A DNA stretch of 64,000 bases from a virus. Positions 45,686-64,000 of the stretch are shown here, one piece after another. The translations under genes and the position numbers were made by a program. Where the stretch lies: the IMG/VR virus record IMGVR_UViG_3300009509_000004, positions 42,759 to 106,758 of that record. One strand, written 5' to 3'. Every line of letters begins with the position of its first letter. The stretch's first letter is position 1. The notes under the pieces were generated by a model, which worked only from the letters and a program-made list of their open reading frames with translations, had not been told where the DNA came from and did not search any database.

Positions 45686-45714
45686 AGTATAGTTGGCTTG
45701 CTTCCATAAGTCAA
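45686..45714 (-). promoter_or_regulatory. Cassette promoter copy 1
   Basis: TTGACT (45709-45714), 17 bp, TATACT (45686-45691). The T-run of the cassette lies directly before the -35 box. This copy has point changes and its terminator stem is poorly paired. It drives the 45136 gene. Confidence 0.85.
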
Positions 45715-47225: not shown

Positions 47226-47254
47226 ATTATAGTTGGCTTGCTTCCAGAAGTCAA
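47226..47254 (-). promoter_or_regulatory. Cassette promoter copy 2
   Basis: TTGACT (47249-47254), 17 bp, TATAAT (47226-47231), identical in both boxes to the consensus of the array. It drives the 46168 gene. Confidence 0.92.
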
Positions 47255-48900: not shown

Positions 48901-48929
48901 ATTATAGTTGGCTTGCTTCCAGAAGTCAA
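48901..48929 (-). promoter_or_regulatory. Cassette promoter copy 3
   Basis: TTGACT (48924-48929), 17 bp, TATAAT (48901-48906). It drives 48594, 47706 and 47297. Confidence 0.92.
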
Positions 48930-49272: not shown

Positions 49273-49301
49273 ATTATAGTTGGCTTGCTTCCAGAAGTCA
49301 A
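49273..49301 (-). promoter_or_regulatory. Cassette promoter copy 4
   Basis: TTGACT (49296-49301), 17 bp, TATAAT (49273-49278). It drives the 58-residue gene. Confidence 0.92.
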
Positions 49302-50609: not shown

Positions 50610-50638
50610 ATTATAGTTGGCTTGCTTCCAGAAGTCAA
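50610..50638 (-). promoter_or_regulatory. Cassette promoter copy 5
   Basis: TTGACT (50633-50638), 17 bp, TATAAT (50610-50615). It drives 50098, 49899, 49597 and 49356. Confidence 0.92.
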
Positions 50639-51819: not shown

Positions 51820-51848
51820 ATTATAGTTGGCTTGCTTCCAGAAGTCAA
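51820..51848 (-). promoter_or_regulatory. Cassette promoter copy 7
   Basis: TTGACT (51843-51848), 17 bp, TATAAT (51820-51825). The segment before it is the usual T7 run, with GGCTCC in place of GCCTCC. It drives the 51580 gene. Confidence 0.92.
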
Positions 51849-53210: not shown

Positions 53211-53239
53211 ATTATAGTTGAAGCCAATCCAGAAGTCAA
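53211..53239 (-). promoter_or_regulatory. Cassette promoter copy 8
   Basis: TTGACT (53234-53239), 17 bp, TATAAT (53211-53216). The spacer differs from the other copies in six or more bases while the boxes are kept, which argues for selection on the boxes. It drives 52599 and 51978. Confidence 0.92.
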
Positions 53240-53513: not shown

Positions 53514-53718
53514 TTTTTGCCTCCTGTGGTTCTGCGCAGTCAATGCTGCAAAATTTTTTGGTTTTGGGCACGTCAGCGCCGCACCTGACGCATCGTCCAA
53601 GCCTGAAAAATGAGATCGCACCTGCCTTCAACAGCTCACTGAATGCAGACCTCTCTGCTGTGGTCATGTATTCTTTCTTGGGGTCAAACCGCCACAGCGT
53701 TGTCTGCTTCAATCCCAT
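53479..53718 (-). CDS. Zinc-finger protein
   Basis: The start at 53718 (MGLKQTTLWRFDPK) follows GGAGGGC and overlaps the deaminase stop (TGATG); 79 residues. CVRCGADVPKTKKFCSIDC gives a C-x-x-C...C-x-x-x-C finger. Unknown function. Confidence 0.68.
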   Translation of the reverse strand: MGLKQTTLWRFDPKKEYMTTAERSAFSELLKAGAISFFRLGRCVRCGADVPKTKKFCSIDCAEPQEAKNGEQERDREMD

Positions 53719-54212
53719 CAACTGCCCTCCTTTGCCGCCCAATCCACCCCCATGTAGCAGATCTTTGGCGCGTTCTCAAGATGCACCATGGCGATGCCCA
53801 ATTTGGCCGCTGACTCCAATGCCCACCTCGCCTTGTCTCCGTCGTGCTGTGGGTCTTTGTATTGCTCCGCATACACAACCCGCTTGATTCTGGCATTGAT
53901 GATAACGCCCATACAGTTGCGACATGGGCTTGCTGATGTGTACATCGTTGTGTCTGCCGTGGAAGCGCCCATCACGCCTGCTTGGATGATCGCGTTGATT
54001 TCTGCGTGGACGCATCGGATGCAATGTCCACCTTCCATTTCACATCCAGCGTCCAAACAATGGACAAGTCCCTCTGGTGATCCGTTGTACCCTGTGGAGA
54101 CAATGTGGCCGTCCCTGACCAAGACAGCCCCGACCTTCCTGCGCTTGCAAGTAGCTCTTGAAGCAACCGCCTGAGCAATCGCCATGAAGTATTCATCCTT
54201 GCTTGGTCGCAC
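53718..54212 (-). CDS. dCMP deaminase
   Basis: The start is put at GTG 54212 because GGAGG lies seven bases before it; 164 residues. The zinc site is complete: HAE at 69-71 and PCRNC at 97-101. An extra C/H set (CEMEGGHCIRC) is like the second structural zinc of T4-type dCMP deaminases. It makes dUMP for thymidylate synthesis. A family-4 uracil glycosylase is encoded two genes upstream. Confidence 0.92.
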   Translation of the reverse strand: MRPSKDEYFMAIAQAVASRATCKRRKVGAVLVRDGHIVSTGYNGSPEGLVHCLDAGCEMEGGHCIRCVHAEINAIIQAGVMGASTADTTMYTSASPCRNCMGVIINARIKRVVYAEQYKDPQHDGDKARWALESAAKLGIAMVHLENAPKICYMGVDWAAKEGS

Positions 54213-54576
54213 AGCTTCGCCTCCTTGACTCGACTCCAAAATTGGTGCGCCTTCCATTGCGCCAAAACTGGGCAGCCATCTCAGCCCCGATGATGTTGAC
54301 CAGTTTGCTTTTGTGGATGAGGGCCATGCCGTTGATACCTGCCGCCTTGAGCCCTTCTTCAGACTCGTGCAGGATGTCGTATGAGCCCAACCAATCCATC
54401 AATCTTGTGCCTGCGATGACCACATAGTCCTTGAATCGCCCTTTTACCTTGTTTGCCAACATCAAGTCACGTATGACTTTTGCATTAGCTGTTGGCGCTG
54501 GTGGCAACGTTTTGCCTGTTTTCTGTTTCTTGGGCACATATTTCTTGGCCCGCTTGCTCTTTTTCTTAGTTGCCAT
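54193..54576 (-). CDS. Unknown basic protein
   Basis: 127 residues with a strongly basic start ([20 protein letters not shown]). [20 protein letters not shown], then [20 protein letters not shown], suggests a folded core. It overlaps both neighbours. No family recognised. Confidence 0.66.
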
Positions 54577-55165
54577 TGGCCACCTCCCAAGCCTTTTTGA
54601 TGTCGCTCAACATCTGGCTCTTGATGCTCTCTTTGCCACCCATTCTGTTCAGGTATGAAGGGTGGAAAGTTGGGATGGCCGTGAACTCGAATACAGCACC
54701 ATGGTCAGCGAGCAACACCACATCGGTGACCTCGCCCCTCCACTTGCTGATTGCCTGGATGCCCGCAAGCCTCTTGGCTGCTGTGCCGCCCATCAAGAGC
54801 AGCACCTTGGGCATCACAATTGCGAGCAACGCCGTCAGCCGATCTCGGCACGCCTTTGCCTCTTCAATGGATGGCTCTCTGTTATTTGGCGGTCTGCAGC
54901 CTACGATATTGGCCACAAACACATCTTTCTCTGGTTTCAGCCCCGCCTCGATGAGCAGTTGGTCAAGACGCCTCCCAGCCGCCCCTACAAATGGGATGCC
55001 CAATTTGTCCTCGTCAGCCCCTGGCCCCTCGCCGATGAGCGCCAGCTTTGCACCTGGACTTCCCCTCCAGTTGACGACCTGTTTGCGCATTTGGTGCAAT
55101 TGGCACCTTGAACAATCGCTCCACTTTGAGCACAGCGCATCCAGCATCTTGATCCTGTGCATCAT
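54566..55165 (-). CDS. Uracil-DNA glycosylase, family 4 type
   Basis: 199 residues. Cysteines near the start ([12 protein letters not shown]), motif [21 protein letters not shown], the pair [20 protein letters not shown] (remaining Fe-S ligands) and motif B FHPSYLNR are all present. This is the thermostable/Fe-S UDG pattern. It removes uracil from DNA, and together with the dCMP deaminase keeps uracil out of the phage genome or degrades uracil-containing competitor DNA. ATGA-type overlap with the upstream exonuclease gene. Confidence 0.9.
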
Positions 55166-56073
55166 CCCGCCAACCTCATCAACTCAAACATCTCAGATGA
55201 CGCAATCAGCGATCTGAACTTGTACGCCATCAAGTGCTTGATCAACAGCCCTTTGTCTCGCTTGGGCTTGATTGCTTTCATGGGCATATCTGTGCGGATT
55301 GTAGTCAACTTCTTGAACAGCAGGATGTCGTCAGCGCCCTCGATGATCGATGCCCTGAACCGCTCTGCGACTGGCCACTCATCCTTGCTCGACTCCTTTG
55401 CGCCCTTGATCACCTTCTTGACAGGCCCAAATGCCTGGATGAGCTTTGCTGCTGTGACCGGCCCAATCCCTCTGATGCCTGGGATGTTGTCAGAATTGTC
55501 GCCTGACAGCGCTTTCAGGTCTGCTATATACCCTGGTGGCACGCCGTGCTTCTCCAAAACACGCTCTTGGTCATACAAGGTATCTTGTGCGCCTCTGAAG
55601 CCTGGTGATGCTGTATATACCTGCTCGGTGATGAGTTGTCGCAAGTCGCTGTCGCCTGAGTAAATCACGACAACGTTGCCTTCAACTTCTGACTCTCTCG
55701 CAAGCCTGCCGATGACGTCATCAGCCTCACAGCCATCGCCATAGTATTGACGCACGCCCATCAAGCGCAGCATCGCCTTGAGCCTCTTTTCTTGCCCAGC
55801 CATATCCTGGATGAGTGCCAACGTTTCCTCATCAGGCTCATCTTTGCGCTTGTAGTCTGGGTACAGGTCACGCCTGAAATTGCCGTGCCCCTCCCAAGCA
55901 ACCATCGACTCGCCGCCATATCTCTGGTGGATCTTGATTGCCACGCTCAGGAAGCCATACATGCCCCCAGTGCCGATGGTTTCGTCACCGACCTCTGCGG
56001 ACAGCATCTTGAATGCATCAGATGTGCGCCACAGCAGGTGACGCCCATCAAAGATGAGCGTGTTTGCCTTCAT
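55162..56073 (-). CDS. 5'-3' exonuclease (FEN/T5-type)
   Basis: 303 residues ([20 protein letters not shown]). Acidic metal ligands are in LIFDGRH, in EADDVIG and in [12 protein letters not shown]. The helix-hairpin-helix [20 protein letters not shown] follows. The arch region with YPDYKRK fits. It removes RNA primers and 5' flaps in replication. Confidence 0.92.
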
Positions 56074-56074
56074 G

Positions 56075-56293
56075 TCAGCCCCCTTGGCACGCTATTGCCG
56101 CATTGGCCGTCATGACCGCTTCCCTGACTTTCCTGACAGCCGCCGTCTGGTCTGCGCACGATGGCGTGTTTGCTACAATCGCCTCTGCCAGCTTCAGACC
56201 TGCCTCACGGATCTCTTGATACATCCTGGGCTGGTCTGCCTGCGGTGAGTGGTAGGTGAACCAATTCTGCAATTGCTCTTGCGTTATGCTCAT
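56075..56293 (-). CDS. Acb2/Tad1-type cyclic-nucleotide sponge (candidate anti-CBASS)
   Basis: The start at 56293 (MSITQEQLQNWFTY) follows AGGAGGATGTG; 72 residues. The whole protein fits the helical hairpin family: F-x-Y-H-x-P at 12-17, a Q-x-x-x-Y-x-x-I-R-E helix, LAEAIVANTPS, then VREAVMTANAAIA. Known members (Pseudomonas phage Acb2 and relatives) form hexamers that bind cGAMP and related signals and so block CBASS and related immunity. Activity here is inferred from family membership. It sits between a replication exonuclease and a zinc protein, not in an evident anti-defence island. Confidence 0.83.
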   Translation of the reverse strand: MSITQEQLQNWFTYHSPQADQPRMYQEIREAGLKLAEAIVANTPSCADQTAAVRKVREAVMTANAAIACQGG

Positions 56294-56309
56294 CACATCC
56301 TCCTGTGCG

Positions 56310-56594
56310 TCAGAATGGGACATCATCATCATCATAGTCCAACTGTTCAAGGAGTGCTTCACGCTCCTGGTTGGCCTCCCACTCTGCTTGCATCTCGCAC
56401 ATTTCCAAATGTTCTCTCCACATACTCTCTTTGATCTGATGCCAACGTCCCAACACTGTGCGCCGCCTCTTGTTCACCCACGTTGTTGGGTCTGGGTCAC
56501 CAGACCAGAACTGCATCCAGACCTCCCTGAATGTGAGGTCTGTCCTGAAATCGTCATATCTCAGCCCGCAAATGGGGCATTCCTCGCCCCTCAC
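56310..56594 (-). CDS. Conserved-type phage zinc protein (DFRT family)
   Basis: 94 residues from a GTG at 56594 overlapping the upstream stop (GTGA). ECPICGLRYDDFRTDLTFRE, then TVLGRWHQIKESMWREHLEM with Cys, is a frequent small phage protein (CPxCG...DFRT...LG-x-W-H-x-x-K...H-L-x-x-C) that probably binds zinc. Function unknown. Confidence 0.75.
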   Translation of the reverse strand: MRGEECPICGLRYDDFRTDLTFREVWMQFWSGDPDPTTWVNKRRRTVLGRWHQIKESMWREHLEMCEMQAEWEANQEREALLEQLDYDDDDVPF

Positions 56595-56930: not shown

Positions 56931-57716
56931 TCACTTTTTCTTTTTTGCCAGGCAGCACTTGCGCGATCCGCACACGTCACAGACTGGCTCATTATGCGGG
57001 GTTGGCACCCCATCTGGATTGACAATCCATTCCCTATCCAACAGGTTGATTGGGTAGGTTTTGGTTGTCCGGTTGAACACTCTGACCTCCTTTTCATGGA
57101 GATCTGACAACTTTATCAAGCCCAACCTCAATTGGACCTCTGTCCAGACCAACTGGGCAATTGCGTATGCGTCTGCCAAATCCTCGCTGGTCTGCATGTT
57201 TTGCTTGGGCGCTGGTGTCTTCTTTGTGGGCTGCGCCGGTGGTTGATCGAGTGAACTGAAGTCGATGTCCCATCGCTTGTCCACAGCCCTGATGACGGCA
57301 TCCTTCTGGCACGTCCCATCATGGGCTGCAAACATCTTGACTGAAGTTGGGTCGTGCAGCCGCATGTTGATCCCTCTGAACCAACACAGGATGCGCGCAA
57401 TGCCGCCGACCTCGCCCAAATAGTGCGCACCTTGCTCTGCCCTGATGGCATAATCCTCGATGCCCACATATTCAGGCATGCTGGGCATGAGCACCTGCTT
57501 GTCGATGAAGTGCTCAATCCATGCCAGCCGCCGCATCCCCTTCACGTGCTTGTCTTTGATCTTGAAAATTTCAGGGTCCATCCTGTGACCACGCTTGGAC
57601 TTGCCCGCCGATCCTGCCAGGTCTGTGTAGTACCAGAAGTTGGTCAGCTCGCCATCGGTGAGCTCAACCATCGCCCCGTGGTTCATGGACACGTCCATGC
57701 CGATCACTTTGGTCAT
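56931..57716 (-). CDS. RuvC-like crossover junction resolvase
   Basis: 261 residues. RNase H-fold acidic positions: GMDVSMNHGA at the start, VGIEDYAI, and the late DLADAYAIAQL. GAHYLGEVGGIARILCWFRG, then HDPTSVKMFAAHDGTCQKDA, is typical of phage RuvC relatives. The end has a CDVCGSRKCC pair and a KKKK tail. It would resolve branched DNA before packaging. Confidence 0.86.
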   Translation of the reverse strand: MTKVIGMDVSMNHGAMVELTDGELTNFWYYTDLAGSAGKSKRGHRMDPEIFKIKDKHVKGMRRLAWIEHFIDKQVLMPSMPEYVGIEDYAIRAEQGAHYLGEVGGIARILCWFRGINMRLHDPTSVKMFAAHDGTCQKDAVIRAVDKRWDIDFSSLDQPPAQPTKKTPAPKQNMQTSEDLADAYAIAQLVWTEVQLRLGLIKLSDLHEKEVRVFNRTTKTYPINLLDREWIVNPDGVPTPHNEPVCDVCGSRKCCLAKKKK

Positions 57717-58339: not shown

Positions 58340-58529
58340 CGTTGTACTCAACTTCCTGCCCGCAATCAACGCAGACATACACATTCTTTTGCACTTCTTT
58401 GTGTGGCACCTTCCCGCTTGTGCGTTCATCGCCGCTGATCACGCCATCCAACTCCAACTTCATAACGATCCTGACCTGCGGCTTTGGTTCCTCAATACAG
58501 CCACAATTTTCACAATACCCCCACCCCAT
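58332..58529 (-). CDS. Small zinc-ribbon protein
   Basis: 65 residues (MGWGYCENCGCIEEPKPQVR), overlapping the Rad50-like gene stop by one base. Two C-x-x-C pairs (YCENCGC and VCVDCGQE) around a small beta core form a rubredoxin-like knuckle. Unknown function. Confidence 0.72.
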   Translation of the reverse strand: MGWGYCENCGCIEEPKPQVRIVMKLELDGVISGDERTSGKVPHKEVQKNVYVCVDCGQEVEYNDG

Positions 58530-60481
58530 TATGTCGCCTCCAACACCGTGTGCCCTCCATGCTTCACGGCAAAGATGGCCTTTTCAAACACCTCTGCAAC
58601 CTGTGCTTCATGGCTGATCACAAAGATGCTTCCACGATGCGCCCTGAGATTCTGGAGCAACAATAGGACGCGTGAACACCCCTCGCCGTCCAGCCCGTCC
58701 AAGACCTCATCGAGCATCAATATGTCAAGGTGGCCGCCTTCCCTCGTGGCGACCAAATCCATCAACCCCAAATCGGTTGCAATCTCCATTTTCTTGAGCT
58801 GCCCGCCGCTGGGTGGATATGAGTCTTCAAGCCCCTCGACCTCCCATTGGATGTCGATCTCATCCCTGAACTCGCCCTTGGTGCTCTTCAACTCACGCTG
58901 TGTGCTGAAATTCATCGTGATGTCGCCGTCTGCCAGTGTCTCCAGGTAATGGTTGGAGCGCTCTGTGATGTACGGCATCACGCTGTCCAAGACGAAAGAT
59001 GGCAACCCCTGATTTGAGAATCCCTTGGACCAGAATTCATAGTGAGCCAGGTGGTTGTTTTTCTCCTTTGCCTCTCTCGTCAGCTCTCTGATGCGTTCTT
59101 TGTACTGTGCAACCTTCCCCTTGGCCTCAACCAGTTGCGCTTCATAGGGGTTGGCTTTTGTCGCCTCTCGCTTGGCCGCCGCCATCTCTTTTCGGGCAAG
59201 CTCAATGTACTGCTTTGCCTTCTCTCTCAGCTCATCGACCCTGTGTTCAGCTGCCGCGATCTCTGCTTCAGCCTCTGCGATCTGTTCTTTGAGGTCACCG
59301 ACCTCTCTGAGCAACGCTGCCTGCTTTGCGCCTTCTTTGCGCTTGGCCTGATACACCTTGCTGACTTTGGCAACTGCTGCCTCCTGGACAGCCACTTCTT
59401 TGTTTGCTTTGTCCAGCGCTTCCTTGATCTTGTCCCTGTTTGCCTTCAACGCCTCGATGTGATCGTGTGCTGCGCCCTCGTTTAGCGGTGTTGTGCAAAC
59501 TGGGCACGTGTCGCCGTCCAGCTCGTCAAGCTGCTTGTTGGCAATCTTCAGCGTTGTGCTGAACTCTGCCGCCCTCTTGCCAGACTCTGCCGCCCCTTCC
59601 TCAAGCGTGTCAACGTCATTGGACAGCTTCTCAGCTTCCTTCCATGCCTTCCCAGCACGTGCTGCGCTGTCCTCAACGACCTTCAACTCAGCCTTCAGCG
59701 CCTCGACATCTGGAAGCTCTGGCTCATCGTCTGCCTGTGCGATTGCCGCTTGCGCCGCCTCCTTGAACTCTTTTGCTTGGAGTTTGTGCTGCGCAATCAC
59801 ACCTTGGCGATCATCCTCCCACTCATCGTGGTCTGCTTGCATCGCCTCGATGTCGTGCTCATCGATGCGCGTTTGGAACGTGGCCATGTCATCCTCGATG
59901 GCCTTGACCTCGTTGCGCATCTTTCTGGCAACGTCCTTGATGTATTCATGGCACTTCGCCAGGATCTCTGTCCTCATGATCCTGTGAAGCATGTCTTTGC
60001 GTTCTGCATCTTTGGTGCGCGGGTGAGCAAACCTGGCTGAGTCATTCTGGCCATACAACACTGTGTTCTTGAATGCCCTGAAGTCAAGCCCGATCATCTC
60101 GATGACCTTGGCCTGGACATCCTCTTTGCTGCCCTTGTATGGCTCGCCGTCTGGCTTGACCAGCTCAATGCTGGGTGAGCCTTTGATGCGTGAACGCCTG
60201 ATTGTCCAATACTCGCCTTTGCCATCAACCAACCGCGTTTCAACCAGCGCCTTCTTTGCGCCGTTGTGGATGATCTTGTCACCCTTTTCGCCGTCAATTG
60301 TCTCGCCATACAGACACCACGTCAGCGCCCTGAAGATCGATGTTTTGCCCGATCCGTTGGAGTCAGCCGCCGCCGTGTCTCGATTCACACCACCGACCCA
60401 TACAAGCCCTTGCTTGTACAGTGGCAGCGTGAACTCCTTGTATGGCCCAAAGTCCTTTGCCGTGATGTCATACAGCTCCAT
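58529..60481 (-). CDS. Rad50/SbcC-like recombination ATPase (gp46-type)
   Basis: 650 residues, start behind GAGGGGAGAAC. Walker A is in DSNGSGKTSIFRALTWCLYG. A long coiled coil has a CPVC zinc hook in its middle. The C-terminal lobe has the signature SGGQLKKMEIATDLGLM and Walker B LDILMLDEVLDGLD. With the neighbouring Mre11-like protein it forms the end-processing nuclease that feeds recombination-dependent replication. Confidence 0.93.
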   Translation of the reverse strand: MELYDITAKDFGPYKEFTLPLYKQGLVWVGGVNRDTAAADSNGSGKTSIFRALTWCLYGETIDGEKGDKIIHNGAKKALVETRLVDGKGEYWTIRRSRIKGSPSIELVKPDGEPYKGSKEDVQAKVIEMIGLDFRAFKNTVLYGQNDSARFAHPRTKDAERKDMLHRIMRTEILAKCHEYIKDVARKMRNEVKAIEDDMATFQTRIDEHDIEAMQADHDEWEDDRQGVIAQHKLQAKEFKEAAQAAIAQADDEPELPDVEALKAELKVVEDSAARAGKAWKEAEKLSNDVDTLEEGAAESGKRAAEFSTTLKIANKQLDELDGDTCPVCTTPLNEGAAHDHIEALKANRDKIKEALDKANKEVAVQEAAVAKVSKVYQAKRKEGAKQAALLREVGDLKEQIAEAEAEIAAAEHRVDELREKAKQYIELARKEMAAAKREATKANPYEAQLVEAKGKVAQYKERIRELTREAKEKNNHLAHYEFWSKGFSNQGLPSFVLDSVMPYITERSNHYLETLADGDITMNFSTQRELKSTKGEFRDEIDIQWEVEGLEDSYPPSGGQLKKMEIATDLGLMDLVATREGGHLDILMLDEVLDGLDGEGCSRVLLLLQNLRAHRGSIFVISHEAQVAEVFEKAIFAVKHGGHTVLEAT

Positions 60482-61595
60482 GTTCTCCCCTCACGGCTTC
60501 AAGCGCCTCTTTGCCGATCTTTTTGAGCTGCTTCTTGTCCAGCCCCTTGGTCACCACGGCACTGGCATCCACATACTCTGTGATGGCCTGGCCAAGCGTC
60601 AACTTCACAGCTGCGTCTTTGGTCTTTGCATCGCCTGTCAGCCGCTTTTTGTGATGATAGATTGGCTTGTGTTTGTATGACGCCCTGATGGCCTCATCCT
60701 TCAGCGCCTCGCAAAACGCCTTTGCCTTTGGCTTGATCTTGGGCCATTCGGCATGCGTTGCTTCCACCTCGATGCGCACATAGTCGCCAGCTTTCCAACC
60801 TGGATTGACCACCATGTCTTGTGTGACGTGAAAGCGTGGCGTTTCACTCTCGATGTATTTGGTGGCCCTCTTGCCTCCCTCTGTGAACTCGATGATCCAG
60901 AAGCCTGCCGTGCGCCCCCTGTCCCCAAAGTGGTGGTGCATTGGAGCGCCAAGGTACATGCCACGCTTGTCCTTGCCAAATTCCTGCGACGTGTGGAAGT
61001 GACCGCCAATCACCCAGTCAAATCCATCGCACAGCTCATCTGGATCAAGCCCGTCGTCACACGTCCACTCAAGGTGATCGCATCCCAACACGCTGTTATG
61101 GAACAGCAAGACGTTTGTGACGTCCTTGGCGCACAACTTCCTTGCCTCTGCAATCTTCTCTTCAGTTTCCTTGATCGGCATGAATGGCACAGGCAAGAAT
61201 TGCAACCATTTCCTGGGTGCAACCTCGCTGTCAAGGAATCTGATGCGCTCGTGCTCCATGACGCCAAACGCCTCGACAGTGAACCTGCCGCCTCTGATGC
61301 TGTTTGCGTCATGGTTTCCCGCCATGATGTACATCGGCACAGTCGTGGCGGTGAGCGCTTGTATGGTGTGAGTCAACGTCACCGCGTCAACCCGACTCTG
61401 ATCAAACAGATCGCCCAAGATGAAAGTGGCGTCCACCTTGGCCGCTGTTGCTACCTCGTTGATGTGAGCAATCAGGTTGATCTGGTCTCTCAGTCTGTCA
61501 GACACATCCTCAGCGCCTGGCTTTGCAAACGGCAGCCGATTGCTCATGTGGATGTCTGCCGCAAATAGCGCCCTGAATTTGCTCAATTTGCCCAT
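60468..61595 (-). CDS. Mre11/SbcD-like nuclease (gp47-type)
   Basis: 375 residues. Metallophosphoesterase motifs: ALFAADIHMS, ILGDLFDQSRVD, MAGNHDANS, a later LLFHN and GGHFHTSQEFG. It overlaps the Rad50-like gene by 14 bases, so the partners are coupled. The start at 61595 overlaps the preceding stop (TAATG). Confidence 0.92.
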   Translation of the reverse strand: MGKLSKFRALFAADIHMSNRLPFAKPGAEDVSDRLRDQINLIAHINEVATAAKVDATFILGDLFDQSRVDAVTLTHTIQALTATTVPMYIMAGNHDANSIRGGRFTVEAFGVMEHERIRFLDSEVAPRKWLQFLPVPFMPIKETEEKIAEARKLCAKDVTNVLLFHNSVLGCDHLEWTCDDGLDPDELCDGFDWVIGGHFHTSQEFGKDKRGMYLGAPMHHHFGDRGRTAGFWIIEFTEGGKRATKYIESETPRFHVTQDMVVNPGWKAGDYVRIEVEATHAEWPKIKPKAKAFCEALKDEAIRASYKHKPIYHHKKRLTGDAKTKDAAVKLTLGQAITEYVDASAVVTKGLDKKQLKKIGKEALEAVRGEHGAV

Positions 61596-61873
61596 TAGTT
61601 CAACAATCCTTCAAACGTCTTGGGCAACGCCTTCCCCTGCCCCACTGCCTGGACAAGCTCGACAATTGCCACAATCGCTCCTTGTGCTTTTACTTTGTTG
61701 TTCAGATACATCTCCCTGAATCCAAGCGCAGGATCTTCCATCTTCCCAGCTTCCCTGCGCCACCTATCCAATATCTCAAGTGCAAGACGTTTGACAAGGT
61801 CAGCATCGTGATAATCGCCAATCTTGCCCCTGACATCCTCGCACCACTCTTCAGCCGTTCTTTGATCACTCAT
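61595..61873 (-). CDS. Small protein between RecA and Mre11-like genes
   Basis: The start at 61873 (MSDQRTAEEWCEDV) overlaps the RecA stop (ATGA); 92 residues, helical (ADLVKRLALEILDRWRREAG, then GAIVAIVELVQAVGQGK). No family recognised; possibly a recombination accessory by position. Confidence 0.68.
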   Translation of the reverse strand: MSDQRTAEEWCEDVRGKIGDYHDADLVKRLALEILDRWRREAGKMEDPALGFREMYLNNKVKAQGAIVAIVELVQAVGQGKALPKTFEGLLN

Positions 61874-62955
61874 CTTTCCCACTTGTTCGCCTGCTCGACC
61901 TCCTTGAGCAGCTTCTGGGCAAGCGCCTCGTTGCTTCTCAAGTTGTCTGCCGCCGATGCCAAGCCCTGGCCCAGCCTGTCATCTCCCCAGGCATACCAGG
62001 AGCCTGATCTTGTTACAATCCCATCAGCCGTTGCCTGCTCTATGAGCGCTGCCTCCTTGTCGATGCCCTTGCCATAGATGATCTCGCACTGCGCCTTTCT
62101 GAATGGCGGTGCGATCTGGTTCTTTTTGCAATGCACCTCGATCTTGTTGCCAATCTTCTGGCCGTCCTTGACATTTGACGCTCGCCTGCCCACGTCCATG
62201 ATCAGGCTGGCATAGAACTTGGGAGCGTTGCCCCCAGCGATCTCGTTGTCATCGCCAAACATCACGTTCATCTTCTTGCGCACCTGGCTGATCCACAACA
62301 GCGCAACATCCTCCTTGGATATTTTGGGCATGAGCTTGGGCAACAATTCTGAATACACCCTCGCCTGGGGTGCCATGTGTTTGTCTTCCCACTCGCCCTC
62401 ATATTGCGCTTTGGTGATCGCTGCGTTCATCGAGTCCAAGACGATGAGGATGGGGACACGCTTGCCTCCCTCCCTCAATTTGGCCGCCCGATCAATGACG
62501 CCTTCAAACGTCTGGAATGCTCGCTCCAGATATGGTGGTTGTGCTATCACCAGGCTGCTTGTGTCAACGCCGATGTTCGCAGCATATTCTGGATCCAGTT
62601 TGTACTCTTTGTCCAGGTACACCGCCACCCCACCAAGCCTTTGAGTCTCAGCCACGATGTGGAGCGCAAGCGTTGTCTTGCCGCTGCCTTCAGCCCCGTG
62701 GATGATCGTCAACCTGCTTCTTGGGATGCCCCCACGACCAATTGCTGCGTCAATCGTGGGGCATTGCGTGGAAATCACGCCCTTGATTTTGATGGCCAGA
62801 CCGTCAGACCCAAGCAGCTGAGCACCACCCTCGCCGACAGCTTCCAATATGCCTTCAAGAACACCTTGTGCATAATTGGACTGCTTGATCGGTGAGGGTG
62901 GGTGCTCGCTGGCCTTGGCCTTGGCCTTGACCTTCACTTGGTTGGTCTTGGCCAT
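61870..62955 (-). CDS. RecA-like recombinase
   Basis: The start is put at 62955 (MAKTNQVKVKAKAK); 361 residues. Walker A GAEGSGKT, then HIVAETQRLGGVAVYLDKEY, Walker B with ILIVLDSMNA, and the L2-adjacent GNAPKFYASLIMDVGRR are all typical of the RecA/UvsX group. The N-terminus is unusually Lys/Ala-rich. The C-terminal part (GIVTRSGSWYAWGDDRLGQG) is the recognised RecA C-terminal signature. It drives strand exchange with the ssDNA-binding protein encoded just upstream. Confidence 0.94.
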   Translation of the reverse strand: MAKTNQVKVKAKAKASEHPPSPIKQSNYAQGVLEGILEAVGEGGAQLLGSDGLAIKIKGVISTQCPTIDAAIGRGGIPRSRLTIIHGAEGSGKTTLALHIVAETQRLGGVAVYLDKEYKLDPEYAANIGVDTSSLVIAQPPYLERAFQTFEGVIDRAAKLREGGKRVPILIVLDSMNAAITKAQYEGEWEDKHMAPQARVYSELLPKLMPKISKEDVALLWISQVRKKMNVMFGDDNEIAGGNAPKFYASLIMDVGRRASNVKDGQKIGNKIEVHCKKNQIAPPFRKAQCEIIYGKGIDKEAALIEQATADGIVTRSGSWYAWGDDRLGQGLASAADNLRSNEALAQKLLKEVEQANKWER

Positions 62956-62960
62956 CACTC

Positions 62961-64000
62961 TCAACCTTTTGCTTTCGCCTTGCCCTTCTTGCCCTTGGAG
63001 ATTTTGGTCAGCTCATCGTCAAGAGCATCCAACCCCAGCTCGTCATCGTCATCGTCGCTGGGCTTGGGTTTCTTGGCCTTCACCACCTTGGGCTTGTCTG
63101 CAGGCTTTTTGTTTTTCTTGGGCGGTGGAGGTGGCTCATCATCTTCATCCTCGTCATCGCCCTCTTCATCCTCGTCATCGCTGTCGTCATCGTCGTCATC
63201 GTCGTCAGCGTCGTCATCGTCGTCAGCGTCGTCATCATCCTCTTCATCGTCATCGTCGCTGTCGTCGTCATCGTCGCTGTCGTCACCGTCGTCATCTTCC
63301 TCCAGCTCATCTTCATCGTCGCTGTCGTCAGTGCCTTCGGTGTCGTCATCCTCATCCCAATCGCCCTCTTCATCATCGTCACTTTCCTCAACCTTCACAC
63401 CGCTGAGGATTGCCTCGATCTCCGATGGCGCTTTGATGAGGTTAGCCATGACCTTGAACAGATCGCAGTCACCGCCCTCGACCATGGCCGCCTCGATGCG
63501 CTTGCGCAATTTTGGCGGCAACTTGAATGGCTTTCTGAGCGTTTCAACGTCAGCCGTCACCTTGTAGCGGGTGTCATTCTTGCCCTTGCCCTCTCTGTGG
63601 ACCATGGCCAAGATCGCCCCATCCATATCGGTGATGTCGCCAGCTTCGATGAACAACTCCATGATGCCGTCATAGATGGTCTTGCCGACCATTGCGACAG
63701 ATGGCTTCCCTGGCAGCTTGCGCCATTCCTCAGCCTTGCTGCCCCGATGCTTGAGCGGGGTGATGCCCCACAGGAAGCGTTGCTGCCTGCGCGACTCGTC
63801 AGCCTCTGCCTCTGACATCTTGCCACTGTCCATTGCCTCTGCCAACGGACACTTCCCTGTGAGCTTGATCTTGCGCTTCTTGAGAAACGCCTTCACAAAT
63901 GGGTGCTCCACAATCGGGTTGGCAGCTGGGTCAAGTGACACAACCATGGCGTTGTTCTGACCAACCCCATAGTGCACTGCCGCCTCGATGTAGTTGGTGC
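62961..64000 (-). CDS. ssDNA-binding protein with very acidic tail (5' end outside window)
   Basis: About 346 residues are visible; the frame is open to the right edge. The folded part contains KTIYDGIMELFIEAGDITDM then D-G-A-I, HREGKGKNDTRYKVTA and a following strand, the pattern of phage OB-fold ssDNA-binding proteins (gp32-like role). A ~75-residue tract of Asp/Ser/Glu/Ala follows (63130-63390), then a Pro/Lys segment and a second acidic patch. Acidic tails of ssDNA-binding proteins recruit partner enzymes; this one is exceptionally long. Located directly before recA. Confidence 0.85.
   Translation of the reverse strand, partial: TNYIEAAVHYGVGQNNAMVVSLDPAANPIVEHPFVKAFLKKRKIKLTGKCPLAEAMDSGKMSEAEADESRRQQRFLWGITPLKHRGSKAEEWRKLPGKPSVAMVGKTIYDGIMELFIEAGDITDMDGAILAMVHREGKGKNDTRYKVTADVETLRKPFKLPPKLRKRIEAAMVEGGDCDLFKVMANLIKAPSEIEAILSGVKVEESDDDEEGDWDEDDDTEGTDDSDDEDELEEDDDGDDSDDDDDSDDDDEEDDDDADDDDDADDDDDDDDSDDEDEEGDDEDEDDEPPPPPKKNKKPADKPKVVKAKKPKPSDDDDDELGLDALDDELTKISKGKKGKAKAKG
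63150..63390. repeat. GTC/ATC triplet-repeat tract
   Basis: The DNA for the acidic tail is a near-continuous run of TCATCG/TCGTCA-type triplets on the plus strand, a microsatellite-like tract prone to length change. It is in frame, so changes alter tail length in single residues. Confidence 0.8.

Follow-up and report, generated by a model that had tools for sequence, protein, structure and literature searches.

The window, by which we mean the whole 64,000-nucleotide stretch analysed here (the final 64 kb of a 106,758-bp IMG/VR virus record), encodes a 72-residue protein whose sequence and modelled fold support its membership of the Acb2/Tad1 hairpin family. Judged by its sequence it is an ordinary new addition to a known family of viral sponges. 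Support for the assignment comes from a curated profile, a predicted protomer architecture and two conserved binding-site positions. Tested members of the Acb2/Tad1 family sequester nucleotide alarm molecules of bacterial anti-phage defence; Acb2 itself is a homohexamer that has sites for three dinucleotides and two trinucleotides, and it sequesters cyclic oligonucleotides without hydrolysing them and rescues phage from CBASS. By analogy with distant tested relatives, from which we infer both cyclic-oligonucleotide sequestration and CBASS inhibition, we consider it probable that the window protein captures cyclic oligonucleotide alarm signals, and it may do so with a ligand spectrum different from that of tested Acb2.

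Results

The gene and its operon

The hairpin gene occupies 56075..56293 on the minus strand, stop codon included, and is identified by PF24729, PHROG 1454 and an AlphaFold2 model. The original prediction had this 72-residue open reading frame exactly and left its strand unnamed. Its minus-strand translation reads MSITQEQLQNWFTYHSPQADQPRMYQEIREAGLKLAEAIVANTPSCADQTAAVRKVREAVMTANAAIACQGG. A Shine-Dalgarno sequence, AGGAGG (56299..56304, minus strand), stands 5 nt from the ATG by our reading of the sequence; 16 nt separate the end of the upstream open reading frame from the start of the gene, and a single nucleotide separates its stop from the start of the exonuclease gene that follows. GC content and third-position GC are like those of the neighbours, and most differences within close homolog pairs fall at silent sites. 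We rejected an alternative GTG start at 56362, which would give 95 aa, because that version overlaps the upstream gene and homologs begin at or near the ATG. The gene is the one above-threshold locus of its family in the whole 106,758-bp record.

Predicted genes between 53.7 and 64 kb, including all of those named here, lie on the minus strand. Directly downstream of the hairpin gene is a 5'-3' exonuclease (55162..56073; PF02739 E 8.4e-26, PF01367 E 1.1e-22), and beyond it a family-4 uracil-DNA glycosylase (54566..55165; PF03167 E 1e-29; TIGR00758 140.9 bits against a cut-off of 125.3) and a dCMP/cytidine deaminase (53718..54257; PF00383 E 2.5e-28), so that two adjacent uracil-handling phage genes share the operon. 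The next gene upstream encodes 94 aa (56310..56594) with no Pfam match over the cut-off, and further upstream lie a RuvC-like Holliday junction resolvase (56931..57716; phrog_159 E 2.1e-21), an SbcC/Rad50-like ATPase (58529..60481; PF13476 E 2.7e-13), an SbcD/Mre11-like phosphoesterase (60468..61595; PF00149 E 3.2e-10) and a RecA/UvsX-like recombinase (61870..62964; PF00154 E 4.4e-66). Adjoining the RecA gene, at 62961-63977, is a 338-aa protein that has no Pfam or PHROG match and contains a long acidic run rich in Asp and Glu. The placement of the hairpin gene among replication genes, as originally proposed, is loosely right and no more, because the DnaB-like helicase of the record lies ~79 kb away and a search for a family-A polymerase domain found none; on the domain matches above, the setting is better called a recombination, repair and nucleotide block.

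That placement had also been taken to suggest constitutive early protection. Six near-consensus sigma-70 promoters with an exact TTGACT-17-TATAAT are found between 47.2 and 53.2 kb, where shuffles give an expectation of 0. Five of them share an identical 29-nt sequence and are at 47226-47254, 48901-48929, 49273-49301, 50610-50638 and 51820-51848; the sixth, which has a different spacer and is nearest to the hairpin gene, is at 53211..53239, and a further copy with two mismatches is at 45686-45714, all on the minus strand. At least four of the repeated promoters lie within repeats of ~100 nt, some of which include a terminator-like hairpin, and they look like terminator-promoter cassettes preceding small genes. 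Since the six promoters are located downstream of the hairpin gene and point to genes further downstream, they cannot drive it, and we found no promoter-like site directly upstream. Early constitutive expression is therefore not indicated, and homologs of the gene adjoin structural as well as replication and recombination genes, which further weakens the proposal. The hairpin gene is most likely expressed from the recombination/repair operon, without a promoter of its own.

Family membership and homologs

The original prediction that the protein matches the Acb2/Tad1 hairpin pattern over its full length is borne out by PF24729, the Acb2/Tad1 hairpin profile, which scores 43.2 bits (E 4.7e-11) across profile positions 1-58 of 58, against a curated gathering threshold of 27 bits. 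The protein also belongs to PHROG 1454 (E 6.7e-16, residues 4-70), a group that carries no functional annotation. PADLOC and NCBIfam hold no model that matches it, phmmer and a profile of 62 sequences found no Acb2 match among PDB sequences, and the region has no nucleotide-level match among sequenced phages. The predicted motifs are present (F12-T-Y14-H15-S-P17, I28-R29-E30 and M61-T-A-N-A-A-I-A68); tested Acb2 proteins carry GY[KR] and RA[VI] instead, so F-x-Y-H-x-P and NAAIA are better described as marks of the clan to which the window protein belongs.

PF24729 matches all 62 homologs in the alignment used for modelling, and tblastn found homologs in 85 phage records and 145 IMG/VR stretches. 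Homologs also occur on eight genome contigs, every one of them from a metagenome-assembled genome; the contigs come from bins of Planctomycetota (two), Singulisphaera, Pyrinomonadaceae, Acidobacteria, Geobacteraceae, Ardenticatenales and Betaproteobacteria. In other phages the neighbours include terminase, head-tail adaptor, ssDNA-annealing, primase or HNH genes, with no synteny worth calling across the homolog loci and no fixed neighbour. In cyanophage S-2L (L083:6001-6213; MW334946.1 35199-35411) an unannotated 71-aa hairpin protein lies amid tail genes and overlaps the start of S2L_48.

Predicted structure

The AlphaFold2 model, built on the 62-sequence alignment, has a pLDDT of 91.9 and consists of a short helix (5-12) and two long antiparallel helices (21-42 and 47-69), with no strand. 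The Acb2 protomer likewise has a short N-terminal helix and then two long antiparallel helices (PMC10419184), and the confident model thus predicts the single-domain architecture of an Acb2 protomer. The predicted viral structures closest to it are those of Acb2/Tad1 hairpin proteins, the first being that of Mycobacterium phage Phabba, with a TM-score of 0.93. Phabba gp146 (L084:3992-4420) is a hairpin of the window clade with an extra C-terminal tail of ~65 residues. Among solved structures T4 Acb2 (7uq2) ranked second at E 2.3; the model aligns to it with Z 6.4 and an rmsd of 4.1 over 65 residues, values that unrelated helical hairpins tie. A control model, that of locus L204 in the tested clan, retrieved 8h2j (E 1.9e-5) and T4 Acb2 (E 0.018). 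Because T4 Acb2 is reached at no better than E 2.3 and in a tie with unrelated hairpins, the fold evidence fits the family and is by itself no proof.

A clade joined to tested Acb2 proteins through intermediates

PF24729 scores the tested T4 Acb2 (Vs.4) at 71.4 bits and PaMx35 Acb2 at 66.1 bits, and a direct comparison of small profiles fails to connect the window clade with the tested clan (hhalign E 0.06-0.12, not significant; direct bit scores against T4/PaMx inside the shuffle range). Because the direct scores are insignificant, we argue for homology through the Pfam model and an intermediate clade, made up of proteins from Paenibacillus and actinobacterial phages, which bridges the window clade and the T4/PaMx clan. 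The window clade and this bridge match at 72-89 bits, the window protein itself scoring 72 bits with the bridge profile, while on the other side 72 of the 76 bridge members exceed the 0.1% level of 20,000 shuffles with a T4/PaMx/Rhizobium-phage profile (best bridge score 27.1 bits, best shuffle 15.2). A tree built from 108 representatives splits in two, with the T4/PaMx/Rhizobium-phage clan on one side and the bridge clades with the window clade on the other; the window clade appears as a supported set of 32 (SH-aLRT 95), and the fine branching is unreliable because only 75 columns carry the tree. On these comparisons the window protein is not close to tested Acb2 proteins and belongs to a large clade linked to them only via intermediates. 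In the literature we found no tested member of the window clade.

Binding-site positions and an exchange of arginines

Two residues of the window protein stand where tested Acb2 proteins bind dinucleotides. Tyr14 (codon 56252..56254, minus strand) shares its column, position 2 of the PF24729 profile, with T4 Tyr8 and PaMx35 Tyr11; this correspondence comes from a 195-row alignment and the Pfam register, and a 277-row alignment shifts the T4/PaMx residue in the Tyr14 column by one. In the 195-sequence alignment the tyrosine is kept by 59 of the 63 window-clade members and by all tested-clan sequences, and in T4 Acb2 the Y8A substitution disrupts cyclic-dinucleotide binding (PMC12657218, PMC12657230). 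Arg29 (codon 56207..56209, minus strand) falls in the column of T4 Lys23 and PaMx35 Lys26; in the same alignment it is arginine in 63/63 window-clade members and in the bridge clade and lysine throughout the tested clan, and in the 277-row alignment it is one or the other in 276/277 homologs. The lysine of PaMx, K26, presumably has a role in binding. As aligned, Tyr14 and Arg29 line up with the dinucleotide pocket of Acb2.

A further arginine appears to have been relocated in the window protein rather than lost. Ala47 (codon 56153..56155, minus strand) lies in a column where other clades have arginine, such as PaMx35 Arg67, which we take to have a role in trinucleotide binding. Arg54 (codon 56132..56134, minus strand) shares its column with T4 Thr68 and PaMx T74, and T68M lowers the affinity of T4 Acb2 (PMC12657230). 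Positions 47 and 54 are one heptad (two turns) apart on helix 3, and the columns from them to the C-terminal core are gap-free. Among 277 homologs, 190 have Arg47 with Thr54, 6 have Arg47 with another residue at 54, and 77 have Arg54 without Arg47; arginine thus stands at exactly one of the two positions in 273, at neither in 4 (T4 included) and at both in 0. In a tree built without columns 47 and 54 the arginine state changes twice, once at the base of the window clade and once within the tested clan, in a branch of Rhizobium phages (RhiN26/L186). The exchange is coupled, and we infer that the arginine would do the same kind of work from either place, whether ligand contact or an interface salt bridge, two events being few for such an argument. 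Beyond this we tentatively entertain, as an idea that is somewhat more likely to fail than to hold, that the window clade forms a subfamily of sponges in which the binding site was rewired, the change from Arg47/Thr54 to Ala47/Arg54 having altered alarm-signal capture, and that the same arrangement arose in parallel in the Rhizobium-phage branch.

Discussion

If the window protein works as tested Acb2 proteins do, its protomers would assemble into an Acb2-like hexamer, the hexamer would bind cyclic di- and/or trinucleotides that CBASS (or related signalling) enzymes of the host produce, and the bound molecules would be kept uncut, leaving the killing effector off. Because the conserved arginine is at 54 and not at 47 in the window clade, we would expect the same architecture to come with an altered ligand preference. 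It is also conceivable, if improbable, that the sponge mainly serves a signal outside CBASS, such as a Panoptes decoy nucleotide, a cyclic oligoadenylate of type III CRISPR or a molecule of the Thoeris gcADPR type. Tad1, a gcADPR binder, has the hairpin too, and ligand range varies among Acb2 homologs (PMC12043709); the arginine has moved, moreover, to the site where a substitution alters the affinity of T4 Acb2 (PMC12657230). However, the gcADPR pocket of Tad1 also uses an N-terminal beta-sheet domain that the 72-aa window protein lacks, and the dinucleotide pocket retains its tyrosine and its basic residue.

A still less likely model keeps the fold and gives it another phage job, as a small oligomeric accessory in, for example, recombination or virion assembly, with ancestral nucleotide binding fallen into disuse. 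Homologs do adjoin terminase, head-tail adaptor, ssDNA-annealing and HNH genes, one adjoins the portal gene in ChisanaKitsune and one is among the tail genes of S-2L, but proteins of the tested clan are likewise found amid structural genes (PaMx35; Leptolyngbya phage Lsp-JY19), the homologs have no conserved neighbour in common, as would fit an autonomous gene, and the pocket positions are under strong constraint. That the match is a chance helical hairpin or no gene at all might be suspected of a short protein with weak fold-search scores, helical hairpins being common; this idea is already refuted by a profile score far above the curated cut-off, hundreds of homologs, divergence that is chiefly silent, a good Shine-Dalgarno sequence and tight operon packing. 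Sequestration of cyclic oligonucleotides remains our preferred reading. If the protein does act as a sponge, environmental phages, whose homologs occur in contigs from bins of Planctomycetota, Acidobacteriota and other little-studied hosts, probably face CBASS-type signalling as a common threat, and the two-position arginine exchange offers a simple handle on the determinants of ligand choice in the Acb2 family.

How the window protein relates to known systems depends on which of them is chosen. Acb2 of T4 (Vs.4, PDB 7uq2) and of PaMx-type Pseudomonas phages (PDB 8h2j, 8h2x, 8ixz) share its Pfam domain and register and its pocket tyrosine, with Lys23/Lys26 replaced by Arg29. In contrast to these likenesses, there is no direct significant sequence match, the loop between the long helices is shorter in the window protein, FxYHxP stands in place of GY[KR], and the conserved arginine is at 54 rather than 47; Ala65 occupies the column of the conserved T4/PaMx arginine (R79/R85), and Ala68 that of the base-stacking T4 Phe82 (PMC12657218), a column where PaMx35 has alanine as well. 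Tad1 (CbTad1, PDB 7uaw, 8kbf) has the PF24729 hairpin in common by family definition and is among the weak fold matches, with an antiparallel beta-sheet domain ahead of its hairpin (PMC12043709). We rejected Tad1 membership for the window protein, which at 72 aa, with no strand in its model, is not a Tad1 because the beta domain is absent. Of the hairpin proteins from Paenibacillus and actinobacterial phages, Balomoji gp102 is annotated as a 'cyclic nucleotide inhibitor'; Hayley gp78 (L085:2492-2695) and its relatives score 95.7 bits with PF24729 yet are annotated 'phosphomannomutase', on this score most likely a misannotation. These hairpins resemble the window protein in their FxYHxP start, NAAIA end, length and register, and differ in having Arg47/Thr54, Glu57 and Trp62 where the window protein has Ala47/Arg54, Arg57 and Thr62.
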